A stretch of 64,000 bases of DNA. Origin: Tritonibacter scottomollicae (GTDB lineage: Bacteria; Pseudomonadota; Alphaproteobacteria; Rhodobacterales; Rhodobacteraceae). The stretch spans positions 124,001-188,000 of the forward strand of contig NZ_PVUF01000003.1 of the NCBI RefSeq assembly GCF_003003215.1, written 5' to 3'. Below, one piece after another: positions 33,928-40,189 of the stretch. The notes below the pieces were generated by a model. The model was not told where the DNA came from. It did not search any database and saw nothing but the letters and a program-made list of their open reading frames with translations. Each line of letters starts with the position of its first letter. Within the stretch, counting starts at the first letter, position 1. A program made the position numbers and the translations under genes.

Positions 33928-34013
33928 GCGCCCTTGAGCGGACTTCCCCCTAGTACGCGGGCCTGAGATCTCCTAGGTTTCAATGCGTTGAGGAAAGTCT
34001 GGGGGCCAAAACG

Positions 34014-34088
34014 GTGAAATCCATCGCCTATGTCGCGTTGCTGATCCTGATGCTGGGCATCGGGACCGGCTGGATCGTTGGGGTCTAG
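34014..34088 (+). CDS. Putative 24-residue single-pass membrane mini-protein
   Basis: A GTG-initiated frame of 24 codons reads M-K-S-I-A-Y-V-A-L-L-I-L-M-L-G-I-G-T-G-W-I-V-G-V when split as short blocks: a charged start, then one hydrophobic helix. GGGGG lies nine bases before the start. The stop is four bases before the ATG of the XpaC-like gene, so it would be translationally coupled to the membrane-stress module. No family is recognised. Coding status is inferred from position, hydrophobicity and ribosome site. Confidence 0.45.
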   Translation: MKSIAYVALLILMLGIGTGWIVGV

Positions 34089-34092
34089 ACAC

Positions 34093-35007
34093 ATGGCACA
34101 GCGTTTTGGTGGCAAATTCAGCCCCTCGGGCAACGACCCCTCCGGCAGCCGTCCGGACGGTCGCACCTCAAGCTCCTCCCGGATGATGGCTAACGCACAG
34201 GTGAACCCCGTGGGCCTGCGCGCCAACCTGATGTTCGTACCTGCTGCTGTTCTGATGCTGTTCTCCCTTGGCGCTGGCGCCTCGGCCCTGGTGATCGGAC
34301 TGATCGGCGCAGGTCTTTGGGTCGGCTCCGCTGTGATGCTGCGCGAAGGGCTGAAGGCCGAAGCCGCCTATGCTGCGCGCAAGGTGGCGCGTCGCCCCGC
34401 CCTGCCCCGCAAAATCCTCGCCGCGCTTCTATGTGGTCTCGGCGGCGCTGTCGGTGCATGGGCCAGCGAGCCTGGCGTGATCACGGCTGCGCTCTATGGG
34501 CTGGCCTGTAGCGGGCTGCATTTCGCCGCCTTCGGTGTTGACCCGCTCAGCGACAAGGGCGTCGCGGGGGTGGACGAATTCCAAAGCTCCCGCGTGGCCC
34601 GCGTGGTGGATGAGGCCGAAACCCATCTGGCCGCGATGAAGGATGCCGTTCTGCGTGCCAAGGATCGTCAGGTCGAGCTGCGCGTCGACCAGTTCCAGTC
34701 CGTGGCCCGTGACCTCTGCCGCACGGTGGAGGAAGACCCGCGCGATCTGACCGCCGCGCGCAAGTATCTGACCGTCTACCTCATGGGGGCCCGCGACGCG
34801 TCCATCAAGTTTGCCGATATCTTTGCGCGCAGTGGCGACGCACAGGCCCGCGCCGACTATCTGGCGCTGCTCGACGATCTGGAACAGAATTTTGCCGCCC
34901 GGACCGAAAAACTCCTGCTGGAGGACCGTGGCGACCTGACGATTGAAATTGATGTATTGCGCGCCCGGTTGGAGCGCGAAGGCGTCCAGATGGACCGCCC
35001 CTCTTAA
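34093..35007 (+). CDS. XpaC-like protein (5-bromo-4-chloroindolyl phosphate hydrolysis family)
   Basis: A 304-residue protein. A polar Ser/Gly-rich start (1-40) is followed by four hydrophobic segments in two pairs (about 42-83 and 107-148), then a long helical cytosolic domain (160-304) rich in charged residues. The architecture matches XpaC (PF10112), historically named for hydrolysis of X-phosphate in B. subtilis but of unknown role; XpaC genes usually lie next to telA, as here (21 bp spacing). I chose the ATG of M-A-Q-R-F-G-G over an in-frame start five codons upstream that overlaps the mini-protein stop. Confidence 0.8.
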   Translation: MAQRFGGKFSPSGNDPSGSRPDGRTSSSSRMMANAQVNPVGLRANLMFVPAAVLMLFSLGAGASALVIGLIGAGLWVGSAVMLREGLKAEAAYAARKVARRPALPRKILAALLCGLGGAVGAWASEPGVITAALYGLACSGLHFAAFGVDPLSDKGVAGVDEFQSSRVARVVDEAETHLAAMKDAVLRAKDRQVELRVDQFQSVARDLCRTVEEDPRDLTAARKYLTVYLMGARDASIKFADIFARSGDAQARADYLALLDDLEQNFAARTEKLLLEDRGDLTIEIDVLRARLEREGVQMDRPS

Positions 35008-35028
35008 CCTGACAGAAAGGCCTGGCCC

Positions 35029-36219
35029 ATGTCCGAGACCATTCAGAAAAAAGCCGTCGAAGCCGAAACATTGGTGAAGGAAGTGACCGAGGTTGCCCTG
35101 GCTGAGCCCAAGGGCGAGCTGGCCACGCTGGAGGCCGCAGACCCGGAGACCACCACCGCGATCCGTCGCCGCATTGGCGAGATCGACATGGGTGACACCA
35201 ATTCGATCATCTCTTTCGGCTCTGCCGCACAGGGCGAATTGCAGCAGATCAGCCAAGCGATGCTGACGGATGTACGCAACAAGGATGTCGGCCCCGCCGG
35301 CGATTCCCTGCGCGATATCGTCACCACCATTCGCGGCTTTTCGGTCTCCGAACTGGATGTGCGCCGCAAGCCCACCTTCTGGGAACGGCTGCTGGGCCGG
35401 GCCGCGCCCTTTGCCAAGTTCACCGCCAAATACGAGACCATCCAGGGCCAGATCGACCGGATCACCGACAATCTCCTGGGCCATGAGCACACGCTGCTGA
35501 AGGACATCAAATCCCTTGACGTGCTCTATGAGAAGACGCTGAACTTCTACGACGAGCTGGCGCTTTATATTGCCGCCGGTGAGGCAAAGCTGGCAGAGCT
35601 AGACGCCACAGACATTCCCGAAAAAGAAGCTGCCGTCGAGGCGGCGCCAGAAGACGACAAGGTCATCAAGGCGCAGGAGCTGCGCGATCTGCGTGCGGCC
35701 CGCGACGATCTGGAGCGCCGGGTGCATGACCTCAAGCTGACCCGTCAGGTCACCATGCAGTCGCTGCCCTCGATCCGCCTGGTGCAGGAAAACGACAAGT
35801 CGCTGGTGACCAAGATCAACTCCACCCTCGTGAATACCGTGCCGCTGTGGGAAACCCAGCTGGCGCAGGCGGTAACCATCCAGCGCTCGGCCGAGGCGGC
35901 GCATGCGGTGCGCGACGCCAACAACCTGACCAACGAGCTGCTGACTGCCAATGCCTCCAACCTGCGCGAAAGCAACAAGGTGATCCGGCAGGAAATGGAA
36001 CGCGGCGTGTTTGACATCGAGGCCGTAAAACAGGCCAATGCGGATTTGATCGGCACCATCGAGGAAAGCCTTCAGATCGCCGACGAGGGCAAGCGCAAGC
36101 GCGCCGAGGCAGAGACCGAGCTGAAGAAGATGGAAACCGAACTGCGCGACACGCTGGCCTCCGCCAAGGCGCGCAAGGATGGTGTCGGCGACAATGCCGG
36201 CACCGCCGTGCCAAAGTGA
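35029..36219 (+). CDS. TelA/KlaA family protein (toxic anion resistance)
   Basis: A 396-residue, almost entirely helical cytosolic protein with a TelA pattern: W-E-R-L-L-G near 125, then F-T-A-K-Y-E-T-I-Q-G-Q-I-D, L-Y-E-K-T-L-N-F-Y and the strongly conserved Q-S-L-P-S-I-R-L-V-Q-E-N (about 246-257), followed by W-E-T-Q-L. Coiled-coil propensity is high towards the C terminus. TelA/KlaA was linked to tellurite resistance on plasmid RK2, and chromosomal TelA genes contribute to resistance to cell-envelope-active agents. AAAGG precedes the ATG. It is in one run with XpaC and DUF2927 genes. Confidence 0.93.
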   Translation: MSETIQKKAVEAETLVKEVTEVALAEPKGELATLEAADPETTTAIRRRIGEIDMGDTNSIISFGSAAQGELQQISQAMLTDVRNKDVGPAGDSLRDIVTTIRGFSVSELDVRRKPTFWERLLGRAAPFAKFTAKYETIQGQIDRITDNLLGHEHTLLKDIKSLDVLYEKTLNFYDELALYIAAGEAKLAELDATDIPEKEAAVEAAPEDDKVIKAQELRDLRAARDDLERRVHDLKLTRQVTMQSLPSIRLVQENDKSLVTKINSTLVNTVPLWETQLAQAVTIQRSAEAAHAVRDANNLTNELLTANASNLRESNKVIRQEMERGVFDIEAVKQANADLIGTIEESLQIADEGKRKRAEAETELKKMETELRDTLASAKARKDGVGDNAGTAVPK

Positions 36220-36229
36220 GCATGGGCGC

Positions 36230-37180
36230 GTGACGCCTCGACACAACAAGACCCGGAACCGCCGCCTCGGCGCGGTTTTGTCGCTGGGCGCGTCTGTCGT
36301 GCTCAGCGGGTGTCTGGCGCTTGCGCCCGGCCCCAAGGACACGCCGCGCCCAACGCCACGGCCCGAAAAACCGATCTACACCCCGTCGGTCGAGGCACAG
36401 GCCCTGACGAAATACTACGCTGATCTTGAACAGGATCTGCTGACCCGTGGGTTATTGCGCACAGATGGTGGCGGGCCGGAAACGCCGTATGACGCCGAGG
36501 ACCTAGCGGAAAACTTTGAAACCCTTGCGTTTTACGACGAATACGCCACGGCCTCTGATGGCGGTGCCGGGGGCCTGGGGCGTTGGGAACAGCCGGTGCG
36601 TCTGGTGCCGGTCTTTGGCCCCTCGGTATCCGCGGCGCAGGCCAAGCGGGATCGCGCCACACTTGCTGCATATGCCGCCCGTCTCGCGCGCATCACCGGG
36701 CATCCCGTCACGGTCGGCTCCAGCGGCAATTTCACCGTGATCTTTGCAGGCATTGATGACGCTGACTATGTTGAAAGCAAGGTGCGCCAGCTCCTGCCCA
36801 ATCTTTCGGCCAGTGACGTCGCCCTGTTTGCGACCCCACCGCGCAAGTTCTACTGCCTGGTCTTTGCAGGCGGCCCGCAACGCGACCCGCTGAATTACTC
36901 CCGCGGGGTTGCGCTGATCCGGGCCGAGCAATCTGAGCTGATGCGCGACAGTTGCATTCACGAAGAAATCGCGCAAGGCCTTGGCCTGCGCAACGACAGC
37001 CCCAGGGCGCGGCCCTCCATCTTCAACGATGATGACGAATTCGCCCGCCTGACCAGCCACGACGAGAAACTGTTGCAGATCCTGTATGATTCCCGTCTGC
37101 GCGTGGCGATGAGCGCGGAGGAAGCCCGACCGACCGTCGCGCGTATCGCCCAAGAGATCATGGGCGATCTGTCTCTCTAG
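36230..37180 (+). CDS. DUF2927 lipoprotein
   Basis: A 316-residue protein with a lipoprotein signal: basic N terminus, hydrophobic run and lipobox L-S-G-C (Cys28), then a Pro-rich linker (P-R-P-T-P-R-P). The body shows the DUF2927 core S-C-I-H-E-E-I-A-Q-G-L-G-L-R-N-D, followed by F-N-D-D-D-E-F-A-R-L-T. The H-E-E-I-A-Q-G-L-G-L string loosely recalls metallopeptidase helices, but a full zinc site is not evident. The GTG start 11 bp after the telA stop gives a proper signal peptide; the longer frame begins inside telA. Probably periplasmic, tethered to a membrane; function unknown. Confidence 0.82.
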   Translation: MTPRHNKTRNRRLGAVLSLGASVVLSGCLALAPGPKDTPRPTPRPEKPIYTPSVEAQALTKYYADLEQDLLTRGLLRTDGGGPETPYDAEDLAENFETLAFYDEYATASDGGAGGLGRWEQPVRLVPVFGPSVSAAQAKRDRATLAAYAARLARITGHPVTVGSSGNFTVIFAGIDDADYVESKVRQLLPNLSASDVALFATPPRKFYCLVFAGGPQRDPLNYSRGVALIRAEQSELMRDSCIHEEIAQGLGLRNDSPRARPSIFNDDDEFARLTSHDEKLLQILYDSRLRVAMSAEEARPTVARIAQEIMGDLSL

Positions 37181-37333
37181 GACGCCGTCCCTGCACCCCC
37201 TCGGCACGTGCACCATACGGTTGCGGGGAAAAGCGCCATGTCTCCGGCAGAATCGCAAGTTCCACGCCCTGCCCTCTGGTTTCGAGGCAACGGGGTTGCT
37301 ACATCTTGGGAAACAGCCGTGGGAGGACACAGC

Positions 37334-38515
37334 GTGGGCATTTTCGATTTTCTCAAAGGCGAATTCATCGACGTCATCCATTGGACCGATGACACCCGCG
37401 ACACCATGGTCATGCGGTTTGAACGCGAAGGCCATGCGATCAAATACGGCGCCAAACTGACGGTGCGCGAGGGTCAGGCGGCGGTCTTTGTCCATGAAGG
37501 CCAGCTGGCGGATGTGTTCACGCCCGGTCTTTACATGCTTGAGACCAACAATATGCCGGTGATGACGACGCTGCAGCACTGGGATCACGGCTTTCAGTCG
37601 CCGTTCAAATCCGAGATCTACTTTGTCGCGACAACGCGGTTCAATGACCTCAAATGGGGCACCAAGAACCCGATCATGTGCCGCGACCCGGAGTTTGGCC
37701 CAGTCCGCCTGCGCGCCTTTGGCAGCTACTCGGTGCGGGTGGTTGATCCGGCGCGTTTCCTGACCGAGATCGTCGGCACCGATGGTCAGTTCACCATGGA
37801 CGAGATCTCCTATCAGATCCGCAATATCATCGTGCAGGAGTTCTCGCGCGCCATTGCAGGATCGGGCATCCCGGTGCTGGACATGGCGGCCAACACCGCC
37901 GATCTGGGCAAGCTGGTGGCGGCCGAGATTGGCCCCGTCGTGGCGGAATACGGCCTCGCCATCCCGGAGCTTTATGTGGAAAATATCTCGCTGCCGCCGG
38001 CGGTGGAGCAGGCGATGGACAAGCGCACCCAGATGGGCATCATCGGCGATCTGGGCCGCTATACGCAGTTCAAGGCCGCCGAAGCCATGGAAGCCGCCGC
38101 CAAGACCCCCAACAGCGGCATGGGCGCGGGCCTTGGCATGGGAATGGGCATGGCGATGGCACAGCAGATGGGTCAGACCTTGCACCAGGCGCAGTCCCCG
38201 GCAGCAGCGGGCCAGACCACCGGTCCCTGGGGCACACGGCCCGCACCCGCTGCCTCGCAGGCGCCAGCGCAGGCCGCCCCGATGGCCCCGCCGCCACCGC
38301 CGGTGGAGCATGTCTGGCATACTGCTGAAAATGGCAAAACCTCCGGGCCATTTTCCAAGGCGCGCATGGGGCGCATGGCGCAGGAAGGCCAGCTGACACG
38401 TGACACCCATGTCTGGACCCCGGGACAAGACGGCTGGATGCGCGCAGGCGACGTCACCGAACTGGCGCAGCTCTTCACCATCCTGCCCCCACCGCCTCCG
38501 CCGCCTGCGGGGTAG
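37334..38515 (+). CDS. SPFH-domain protein with C-terminal GYF-type domain (virion-core-protein-like)
   Basis: A 393-residue protein. The N-terminal SPFH/band-7-like domain (about 1-260) starts M-G-I-F-D-F-L-K-G-E-F-I-D and shows V-R-E-G-Q-A-A-V-F and L-Y-M-L-E-T-N-N-M-P. A Gly/Met-rich linker (265-285) and a Pro/Ala-rich linker (300-330) lead to a GYF_2-like domain with W-H-T-A-E-N-G-K-T-S-G-P-F and W-T-P-G-Q-D-G-W. Such proteins are commonly mis-named lumpy-skin-disease virion core protein. They are thought to scaffold membrane microdomains. A perfect GGAGG seven bases upstream supports the GTG start. It sits in a run with TelA and a zinc-ribbon protein. Confidence 0.88.
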   Translation: MGIFDFLKGEFIDVIHWTDDTRDTMVMRFEREGHAIKYGAKLTVREGQAAVFVHEGQLADVFTPGLYMLETNNMPVMTTLQHWDHGFQSPFKSEIYFVATTRFNDLKWGTKNPIMCRDPEFGPVRLRAFGSYSVRVVDPARFLTEIVGTDGQFTMDEISYQIRNIIVQEFSRAIAGSGIPVLDMAANTADLGKLVAAEIGPVVAEYGLAIPELYVENISLPPAVEQAMDKRTQMGIIGDLGRYTQFKAAEAMEAAAKTPNSGMGAGLGMGMGMAMAQQMGQTLHQAQSPAAAGQTTGPWGTRPAPAASQAPAQAAPMAPPPPPVEHVWHTAENGKTSGPFSKARMGRMAQEGQLTRDTHVWTPGQDGWMRAGDVTELAQLFTILPPPPPPPAG

Positions 38516-38527
38516 TATCCCTTGACG

Positions 38528-39022
38528 ATGCCGAGCTTTTCACCCTACTCAACGCAACAATGGAGGTATGCGGTCAGCCTGAGCGGCCCGATCGCATACA
38601 ACATCATCCTTATTGTTTCGACGGCTCCAATTCTGCTTTCAAGCGACCCTTGGTATGCTGCAATTCTGTATATCTTGGTGTTTGCTCTAGTTGGTACACC
38701 AATTGCCTTGATGGCGAGTTGGGTATTCTTGTCTGCGCCACTTAGGCTTCTTATGCGACGCCGCGTAAGCTGGGGAGTTGCAGTGCTTTGGGGGGCCATA
38801 ATTCCGATGGTTGCCATAGTGACCTATTCGCTTCTGATAAATACTATTGGAACAACAGGGCTTGGGTGGACCAGCCCCACAGCGCGAGACTGGACAGTCT
38901 CGGCTGAACATCAGCTCCTCACATCGTCTCAATCGAGAGCGATATTCGTAAGCGCATGCGTTTCAACCGCACTTTTTATTCGCTTCTGTCTCGGACCTGG
39001 CAGACAACTTGAAGCACCTTGA
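38528..39022 (+). CDS. Small membrane protein of low GC, unknown function
   Basis: About 164 residues with four hydrophobic segments (roughly residues 20-38, 43-66, 84-108, 137-155 from the chosen ATG). No family is recognised. The gene is visibly AT-richer than its neighbours and uses codons such as ATA, AGA and TTA that are rare around it, suggesting recent acquisition. It lies 12 bp after the SPFH gene and 33 bp before the zinc-ribbon gene, all on one strand. Two starts are possible (TTG at 38522 or this ATG). Confidence 0.6.
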   Translation: MPSFSPYSTQQWRYAVSLSGPIAYNIILIVSTAPILLSSDPWYAAILYILVFALVGTPIALMASWVFLSAPLRLLMRRRVSWGVAVLWGAIIPMVAIVTYSLLINTIGTTGLGWTSPTARDWTVSAEHQLLTSSQSRAIFVSACVSTALFIRFCLGPGRQLEAP

Positions 39023-39055
39023 ATAATTGGCTCTAGACCAAATGGTATACTCCGC

Positions 39056-40189
39056 GTGACCCAGACACCGCCGCCCCCGCCCGCAATGGACACAGCCCCC
39101 CAAGAAGCAGAGGAAACGCACCGCTTTCCTTGTGAACAATGCGGTGCCGATTATCGCTTTGCGCCAGCAGAAGGCGCGTTGATCTGTGATCACTGTGGCC
39201 ACCAGAAAGACCTGACAGAGAGCCCATGGGGCGGCAGCGCCCTGAAGGAGCTCGATTTCCTCTCCGCGTTGCGCGAACAGCTTCCTGCCGCCGAGATGGA
39301 AGTGACCCGCGTTTCCTCCTGCCCCAATTGTGCCGCGCAGGTGGAGTTTGACCCCTCGGTGCATGCGCTGGAATGCCCCTTCTGCGCCACTCCCGTGGTG
39401 GCGGACACCGGCGAGAACCGTCACATCAAACCCAAGGGTGTCCTGCCCTTTCAGTTCGACGAACGCGCCGCGCACACGGCGATGGAAGACTGGTTGGGCG
39501 GGCTGTGGTTTGCGCCAAATGGCCTCAAGGAATATGCCCGTAAAGGGCGCAAGATGGATGGGATCTACGTCCCCTACTGGACCTATGACGCCCAGACCCA
39601 CAGCCAATACACCGGCCAGCGCGGCACGGAATATACCGTCAGCCGCACCGTCATGGTCGACGGCAAACCGCAGGTGCGCACCGAAGTTCGCGTGCGCTGG
39701 TCCAATGTCCGTGGGCGCGTGCAGCGATTCTTTGACGACGTATTGGTGCTCGCCTCCAAAAGCCTGCCGCGCAAATATACCGAAGGGCTGGAGCCTTGGG
39801 ACCTGTCGCAGCTTGCCCCCTATCAGCCCAAATATCTGGCCGGGTTCCGGGCTGAGGCCTATACCATCGACCTTGAGCCCGGCTTTGCCGATGCCAGCCG
39901 GAAAATGGACCGGGTGATCGAACGCGACATCAAGTTCGATATCGGCGGCGACCGCCAGCGCATCAGCTCGGTCGATACCGATGTGAGTGCGGTGACGTTC
40001 AAACACGTGCTGCTGCCGGTCTGGATGGCAGCCTATAAATACCGCGGTCAAAGCTATCGCTTTGTGGTGAACGGGCAGTCGGGCCGGGTGCAGGGCGAAC
40101 GCCCCTATTCCGCATGGAAGATCGCAGGCGCCGTTGTGCTGGGTTTGATCGTGGCGGCTGGCGTGGCCTACCTCGCGTCACAGAGTTAA
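39056..40189 (+). CDS. Double zinc-ribbon, C-terminally anchored membrane protein
   Basis: A 377-residue protein. Two zinc ribbons lie near the N terminus: Cys26/29/44/47 and Cys89/92/107/110 (each C-x2-C...C-x2-C). A middle domain of beta character (130-345) includes G-V-L-P-F-Q-F-D, Y-V-P-Y-W-T-Y-D-A and L-P-V-W-M-A-A-Y-K-Y, then a single transmembrane segment at the C terminus (about 352-373). It is often annotated as primosomal-protein-N'-like or TFIIB-type, on the zinc ribbons only. Homologues commonly neighbour SPFH/GYF genes, as here. Starts with GTG. Confidence 0.8.
   Translation: MTQTPPPPPAMDTAPQEAEETHRFPCEQCGADYRFAPAEGALICDHCGHQKDLTESPWGGSALKELDFLSALREQLPAAEMEVTRVSSCPNCAAQVEFDPSVHALECPFCATPVVADTGENRHIKPKGVLPFQFDERAAHTAMEDWLGGLWFAPNGLKEYARKGRKMDGIYVPYWTYDAQTHSQYTGQRGTEYTVSRTVMVDGKPQVRTEVRVRWSNVRGRVQRFFDDVLVLASKSLPRKYTEGLEPWDLSQLAPYQPKYLAGFRAEAYTIDLEPGFADASRKMDRVIERDIKFDIGGDRQRISSVDTDVSAVTFKHVLLPVWMAAYKYRGQSYRFVVNGQSGRVQGERPYSAWKIAGAVVLGLIVAAGVAYLASQS

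Follow-up and report, generated by a model that had tools for sequence, protein, structure and literature searches.

A conserved XpaC-TelA and SPFH-zinc-ribbon gene block of Rhodobacteraceae as a candidate membrane-protection operon

In this work, a run of seven genes was analysed in a 64,000-nucleotide stretch of the Tritonibacter scottomollicae genome (contig NZ_PVUF01000003.1, positions 124,001 to 188,000), hereafter the window. The seven open reading frames (ORFs) at 34014-40189 all lie on the + strand (Table 1) and are separated by gaps of 4, 21, 10, 153, 6 (or 12) and 33 bp; the ORF coordinates thus confirm the seven co-directional genes with 4 to 153 bp gaps described in an earlier, sequence-only reading of this DNA. 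The families named there were recovered by a Pfam scan of the six larger products: XpaC (PF10112, E 4.8e-24), TelA (PF05816, E 4.3e-109), the DUF2927 lipoprotein (PF11150, E 4.3e-57), an SPFH protein with a GYF domain (Band_7_1, PF13421, E 8.4e-99; GYF_2, PF14237, E 2.5e-19) and a zinc-ribbon protein, ZnR (PF11781, E 3.2e-9). No Pfam family above the cut-off was matched by the small membrane protein. The five membrane or lipid-anchored products proposed earlier agree with a simple hydropathy scan, by which transmembrane (TM)-like stretches were called.

Table 1. Features of the gene block and its upstream region (window coordinates).
Feature	Position	Strand	Evidence
Promoter-like conserved element CTTCCCCCTAG-N14-ATCNCCTA(g)	33943..33976	+	pattern counts upstream of block
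Mini-protein, 24 amino acids, one TM-like stretch, GTG start	34014..34088	+	translation, recurrence, pN/pS
XpaC (PF10112), N-terminal TM-like stretch(es)	34093..35007	+	Pfam, hydropathy
TelA (PF05816), predicted all-helical, no TM-like stretch	35029..36219	+	Pfam, AlphaFold2 model, hydropathy
DUF2927 lipoprotein, predicted matrixin fold, zinc ligands replaced (EExxQxxGxxN)	36230..37180	+	
SPFH (Band_7_1)-GYF_2 protein, C-terminal poly-proline tail	37334..38515	+	Pfam, hydropathy/motif scan
Small membrane protein, several TM-like stretches, TTG start (or ATG at 38528)	38522..39022	+	local insertion
ZnR, YdjG-like: two zinc ribbons, conserved Pfam-less region, C-terminal TM-like stretch 356-374	39056..40189	+	homology, hydropathy

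Among 295 genomes from this family, 258 have a TelA match above the cut-off, as against 17 of 190 genomes from the class; among the matches listed, the best named one is that of Phaeobacter sp. HF9A (91%). The best 80 of the listed TelA matches were taken as named loci, in which close relatives dominate. The five-gene order is complete in 78 of these 80, and the adjacencies XpaC-TelA, TelA-DUF2927 and DUF2927-SPFH each occur on one strand in 79; ZnR is present in 73, genes missing near contig ends being counted together with true losses. Furthermore, of 43 other distinct same-family loci, the window included, 40 have the full XpaC-TelA-SPFH-ZnR core on one strand (44 rows, two of them, L054/L102, identical; 40 were hand-picked from the 258 TelA genomes). 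Among 114 loci with xpaC, SPFH and 3.5 kb of upstream sequence, tadA/rluB are absent from these 3.5 kb in 12, and xpaC, telA, SPFH and ZnR are kept in all 12. Both this count and the count of 123 loci used below contain repeats, one contig having entered twice (L054/L102, recognised from their coordinates; L063/L116, L050/L155 and L066/L178, from the length of the contig and the position on it). Because the order is complete in 78 of 80 loci and the core persists in 12 of 12 loci with changed upstream flanks, the association of these genes exceeds chance. By its sequence conservation, the region, apart from the small membrane gene, is a real, conserved block, which we read as an operon. In Paracoccus ferrooxidans, TelA-DUF2927-SPFH-ZnR is carried on a 1.46 Mb plasmid. 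A b561-like cytochrome gene (labelled from the sequence by eye) stands inside the block in 18 of the 80 named loci, and two XpaC-type genes precede telA in tandem in L060, L062, L070 and L072. One named locus (L156) bears an actinobacterial name, Enemella evansiae; its contig holds a Rhodobacteraceae-like block, which may point to a wrong label or a mixed record.

An iterated hidden Markov model (HMM), whose eight seed loci are among those counted, detected the mini-protein ORF ahead of xpaC at 94 of 123 loci; the reverse-strand control gave 0. For 59 of the 94 cores (E <=1e-9; 1144 pairs at 60-98% identity, the pairs not being independent), its ratio of nonsynonymous to synonymous change (pN/pS) is 0.48, whereas the two shifted reading frames give 1.05 and 1.94. 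A typical relative reads MSGTGVQKLAYAALLVLLFGVCTGxLGGL, with one TM segment, and in some loci the sequence forms the end of a longer protein. Judged by this recurrence and constraint, the mini-protein is a real conserved small membrane protein. The small membrane gene between SPFH and ZnR had also been placed in the set, which did not hold: a relative at the same place occurs in only two of 123 other loci (L112, L114), and its DNA has a GC fraction of 0.50-0.54, compared with roughly 0.57-0.72 around it. From its distribution and composition, this gene is a local insertion outside the conserved set. The upstream element CTTCCCCCTAG-N14-ATCNCCTA was matched with <=3 mismatches over 19 fixed positions in 46 of 123 upstream regions (77 without it; reverse-strand control 0), the pattern having been built from relatives in which it was later counted; 12 further matches occur elsewhere in 4.3 million strand-bases of the loci analysed. 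In the genome, the exact form is a single site, and four other sites at 3 mismatches, as against four for the reversed pattern, give no sign of a regulon. Scans for sigma-70 promoters and terminators gave signals at shuffle level. As a sequence pattern, the element is compatible with a promoter that drives the block in some members of the family.

The DUF2927 protein carries a signal-like stretch and a lipobox, and the lipobox regular expression was matched in 65 of 79 relatives. Fold comparison of its predicted structure supports a matrixin fold. The zinc-motif position reads EExxQxxGxxN, whereas matrixins have HExxHxxGxxH, so that the His-His-His ligands of matrix metalloproteinases and karilysin are represented by Glu-Gln-Asn; moreover, DUF2927 differs from these enzymes in being a lipoprotein. 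None of the 107 DUF2927 sequences, counted after removal of short pieces, has a histidine at any of the three ligand columns; a survey of 29 loci contributed 27 of them, L204 (a short piece) and L232 (no HMM match) having been dropped, and six of the 27 belong to the same family. Tested on sequence alone, the metzincin idea failed; the fold comparison afterwards spoke in its favour. A Pfam scan of 41 members found DUF2927 in all 41 and otherwise stray weak matches, with no sequence-level support for a metzincin, and searches of PDB sequences with DUF2927 gave no metzincin. In hhalign against 12 PF00413 rows, one of which (L244) was out of frame and retained, the probability was 0.1 and E 0.44, compared with E 0.61 for the reversed control and 0.32-0.72 for four others, although the 114 aligned columns fall in the register that a shared fold predicts. 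We hypothesize, on the strength of the predicted model, that DUF2927 is a pseudo-matrixin, matrixin-shaped with its zinc ligands gone, which may bind rather than cut a partner. The literature search returned no paper on DUF2927. A second copy in the genome (L106, contig C10) has a long C-terminal extension.

The SPFH-GYF protein, on the other hand, showed no TM-like stretch in the hydropathy scan and no signal-like stretch or lipobox. Up to E 1, only Band_7_1, Band_7, GYF_2 and GYF were matched and the flotillin domain PF15975 was not; the protein thereby differs from flotillins (FloA/FloT, YqiK), which have this domain and a membrane segment of their own. A search of PDB sequences at E <=0.01 gave a single relative, the gliding-motility protein GltJ/AglX (7z3c), through the GYF region that both proteins have (E 3.9e-4). 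We take GltJ also to carry a zinc ribbon and a Pro-rich linker and, unlike the SPFH-GYF protein, to lack an SPFH domain. Two ligands had been suggested for the GYF domain. Recruitment of the Pro-rich linker of DUF2927 is not supported: only DUF2927 has a signal-like stretch and lipobox and is exported, and the two proteins are therefore expected on opposite sides of the membrane. Binding of the poly-proline N-terminus of ZnR is less likely, since a crude scan found a PPP run there in 24 of 73 relatives, whereas the 25 C-terminal residues of the SPFH protein contain one in 75 of 79. By the same counts, the protein's own poly-proline tail is the likelier ligand.

The arrangement resembles two known systems. 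In the block, a PF10112 gene lies directly upstream of a PF05816 gene, as in xpaC-yaaN of Bacillus subtilis and lmo1966-lmo1967 of Listeria, records which bear out the proposed co-occurrence of XpaC and TelA but show no adjacent SPFH, ZnR or lipoprotein gene in the stretches inspected. The second half resembles pspA-ydjGHI of B. subtilis, which combines a PF13421-family SPFH protein with a YdjG-like membrane protein bearing two zinc ribbons and whose soluble SPFH protein needs a membrane partner, to which the SPFH-GYF protein can be likened. The SPFH protein is of the Band_7_1 (YdjI-type) class, and PF13421 also matches in B. subtilis, a likeness at the level of the family rather than of YdjI itself. 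ZnR is classed as YdjG-like through an Enterococcus gallinarum gene between SPFH and TPM genes (26% identity, 377 aligned columns, E 2e-36) rather than through B. subtilis YdjG itself. The SPFH-ZnR-TPM gene set of E. gallinarum is as described for B. subtilis (PMC11237479, PMC8581546; these and the PMC sources below are cited from excerpts). On a Vibrio plasmid, SPFH and ZnR are 3 bp apart. The block differs from pspA-ydjGHI in that its SPFH protein ends in GYF_2 and poly-proline instead of a zinc ribbon, that XpaC, TelA, DUF2927 and the mini-protein are additional, and that PspA and TPM (YdjH) genes are absent.

The proposed role in envelope stress is supported by the sigma-W lists of B. subtilis, which hold xpaC-yaaN in the core and pspA-ydjGHI and yceCDEFGH in the secondary set (PMC3498285), and by the requirement of YdjI for PspA foci and of YdjG and YdjH for membrane recruitment (PMC8581546). 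By analogy, we infer that Rhodobacteraceae may hold in one operon what Bacillus splits under one sigma factor. On balance, we lean towards a membrane-protection operon that acts as PspA-YdjGHI does within the envelope-stress response of Bacillus, but is built around TelA and not PspA. Building on the observed gene content, order, conservation, topology signals and homologies, the following steps can be proposed. Having no membrane segment, the SPFH-GYF protein would be tethered to the inner membrane by ZnR, which is YdjG-like and tail-anchored; there it could oligomerise through its SPFH domain and be locked or linked through the GYF domain and its own tail. This assembly would recruit the long-helix protein TelA. 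XpaC would serve TelA as membrane partner and would itself have the mini-protein, with its one TM segment, as an accessory. The DUF2927 lipoprotein may form a periplasmic arm, binding and not cutting a partner across the membrane. As a result, cells would tolerate damage to the membrane or the cell envelope, and effects on tellurite would be secondary. Among the literature matches listed, no title or abstract start concerned this operon, and none gave interaction or phenotype data for it; the sole expression hint found is a Paracoccus TelA in a plastic-biofilm metaproteome (PMC11962581).

Several observations weigh against a TelA-centred membrane-protection operon. No match to PspA or TPM (PF04536) was obtained among the six larger block products, the scope of the TPM search. 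A PspA-family gene of 232 amino acids exists elsewhere in the genome, between glyA-like and TetR-like genes (L104, contig C12), so TelA need not replace PspA. The AlphaFold2 model of TelA, with two helices of about 78 residues, is weak (mean pLDDT, the predicted local distance difference test, 68.6), and its fold matches are ClyA-type helical bundles, not PspA; no ESCRT-III/PspA look-alike was among the 50 fold matches listed for this weak model, and a PDB sequence search with TelA gave no relative at E <=1. A breakdown of synteny beyond close relatives, raised earlier as a sign against the proposal, was found in part: 12 of 16 non-family TelA loci (class search, 14 genomes) lack the core and have no SPFH gene at the locus, whereas four (L025, L026, L028, L036) keep XpaC-TelA-SPFH-ZnR. 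Eight of the 12 hold XpaC and TelA, including L008 on a 3.1 kb contig from the same genome as L036, and four TelA alone. Conversely, searching the phylum with PF13421 gave matches in 102 of 299 genomes at E <=0.001 (60 above the cut-off); of the 18 loci then retrieved, all 17 non-family ones are without TelA and XpaC at the locus. Full-length ZnR stands beside SPFH in eight of them, in line with the suggested SPFH-zinc-ribbon pairing; eight have zinc-ribbon matches only, and L087 is at a contig end. In genome G012, TelA (L035) and SPFH (L101) are about 130 kb apart. From such SPFH loci without TelA and XpaC, TelA loci without SPFH and the G012 split it follows that the two halves can work apart. 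At L095, the one of these eight to which a family scan was applied, the zinc-ribbon match is a DUF4178 protein with a DUF350 gene nearby, resembling phage-shock-protein (PSP)-linked operons (PMC11237479). L031, L033, L037 and L038 show a different setting of XpaC and TelA: after TelA come a solute-binding/VWA-like protein, XpaC and a further binding-protein-like gene (named from the sequence by eye).

A metal or oxyanion homeostasis operon of the Ter type, in which TelA/XpaC handle tellurite or manganese with TerC and SPFH-ZnR only organises an exporter, is unlikely. TelA is named after toxic-anion resistance, and a homologue, klaB of IncP-type plasmids (28% identity), belongs to the plasmid-borne klaB/TelA genes annotated as tellurium resistance. 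YceH of B. subtilis is presumably a TelA protein. Its gene shares one operon with yceF (TerC) (PMC3498285), and TerC proteins metalate exported enzymes (PMC10550928). In 14 of the 80 named loci (e.g. L029, L043, L045, L053, L054), the immediate upstream neighbour of xpaC is a TerC-like gene, recognised by eye, but none was detected beside the block in the other 66, and the window's genome gave no TerC (PF03741) match. Moreover, disruption of Listeria lmo1967 (TelA) raises sensitivity to nisin 4-fold and to tellurite 2-fold, a larger effect on the former (PMC12791056).

It is also improbable that two unrelated pairs, XpaC-TelA and SPFH-ZnR, were co-inherited with DUF2927 by chance in one family and share no complex. 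Each pair is found alone elsewhere, loci of roughly 3.6 kb from other genomes show DUF2927 with neither TelA nor SPFH, and the SPFH tree, with two changes, does not settle between one and two origins. However, the core persists where upstream flanks have changed, and in phages XpaC-TelA is joined to another class of SPFH protein. Sinorhizobium phage Phosso (469 kb; L191, 353144-364175) encodes YqiJ, a flotillin (PF15975), XpaC and TelA consecutively, and 12 TelA-matching loci were taken from IMG/VR, on which collection their viral status rests; in three of them (L192, L193, L194) YqiJ-flotillin-XpaC precedes TelA, and the other nine are without it. XpaC-TelA thus stands beside an SPFH protein as in Rhodobacteraceae, but that protein is a flotillin accompanied by YqiJ, and ZnR, DUF2927 and GYF_2 were not found in these loci. 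No paper about this phage module was among the literature matches listed. In a TelA tree of 28 rows, a 97/93 branch parts the YdjI-type-linked TelAs from the flotillin-linked phage ones; 12 rows belong to neither group, and L030, with no SPFH gene in its stretch, falls inside the YdjI-type-linked side. That TelA is a ClyA-like membrane-inserting helical protein kept in check by the SPFH, ZnR and DUF2927 proteins is very improbable.

The block is best read as PspA-YdjGHI-like membrane protection merged with XpaC-TelA, in which the predicted pseudo-matrixin and the microprotein are of special interest. A more far-reaching proposal, which we put forward tentatively, is that TelA-XpaC could do the work in a second machine for membrane repair, one that does not depend on PspA and has been coupled more than once to an SPFH scaffold, of the YdjI type in Alphaproteobacteria and of the flotillin type in large phages. 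In Rhodobacteraceae, this machine would span the envelope via the pseudo-matrixin family DUF2927, whose lipoproteins would sense or hold a periplasmic partner, with the new microprotein tuning XpaC. No mechanism for TelA was met in the literature searched. Its tie to YdjI/YdjG membrane-stress proteins in most sampled genomes of a family that includes tractable laboratory strains makes its role testable, and DUF2927 gains a predicted fold and a falsifiable hypothesis of binding instead of cleavage. In addition, the phage copies suggest that there is value in carrying genes that hold the host membrane together.

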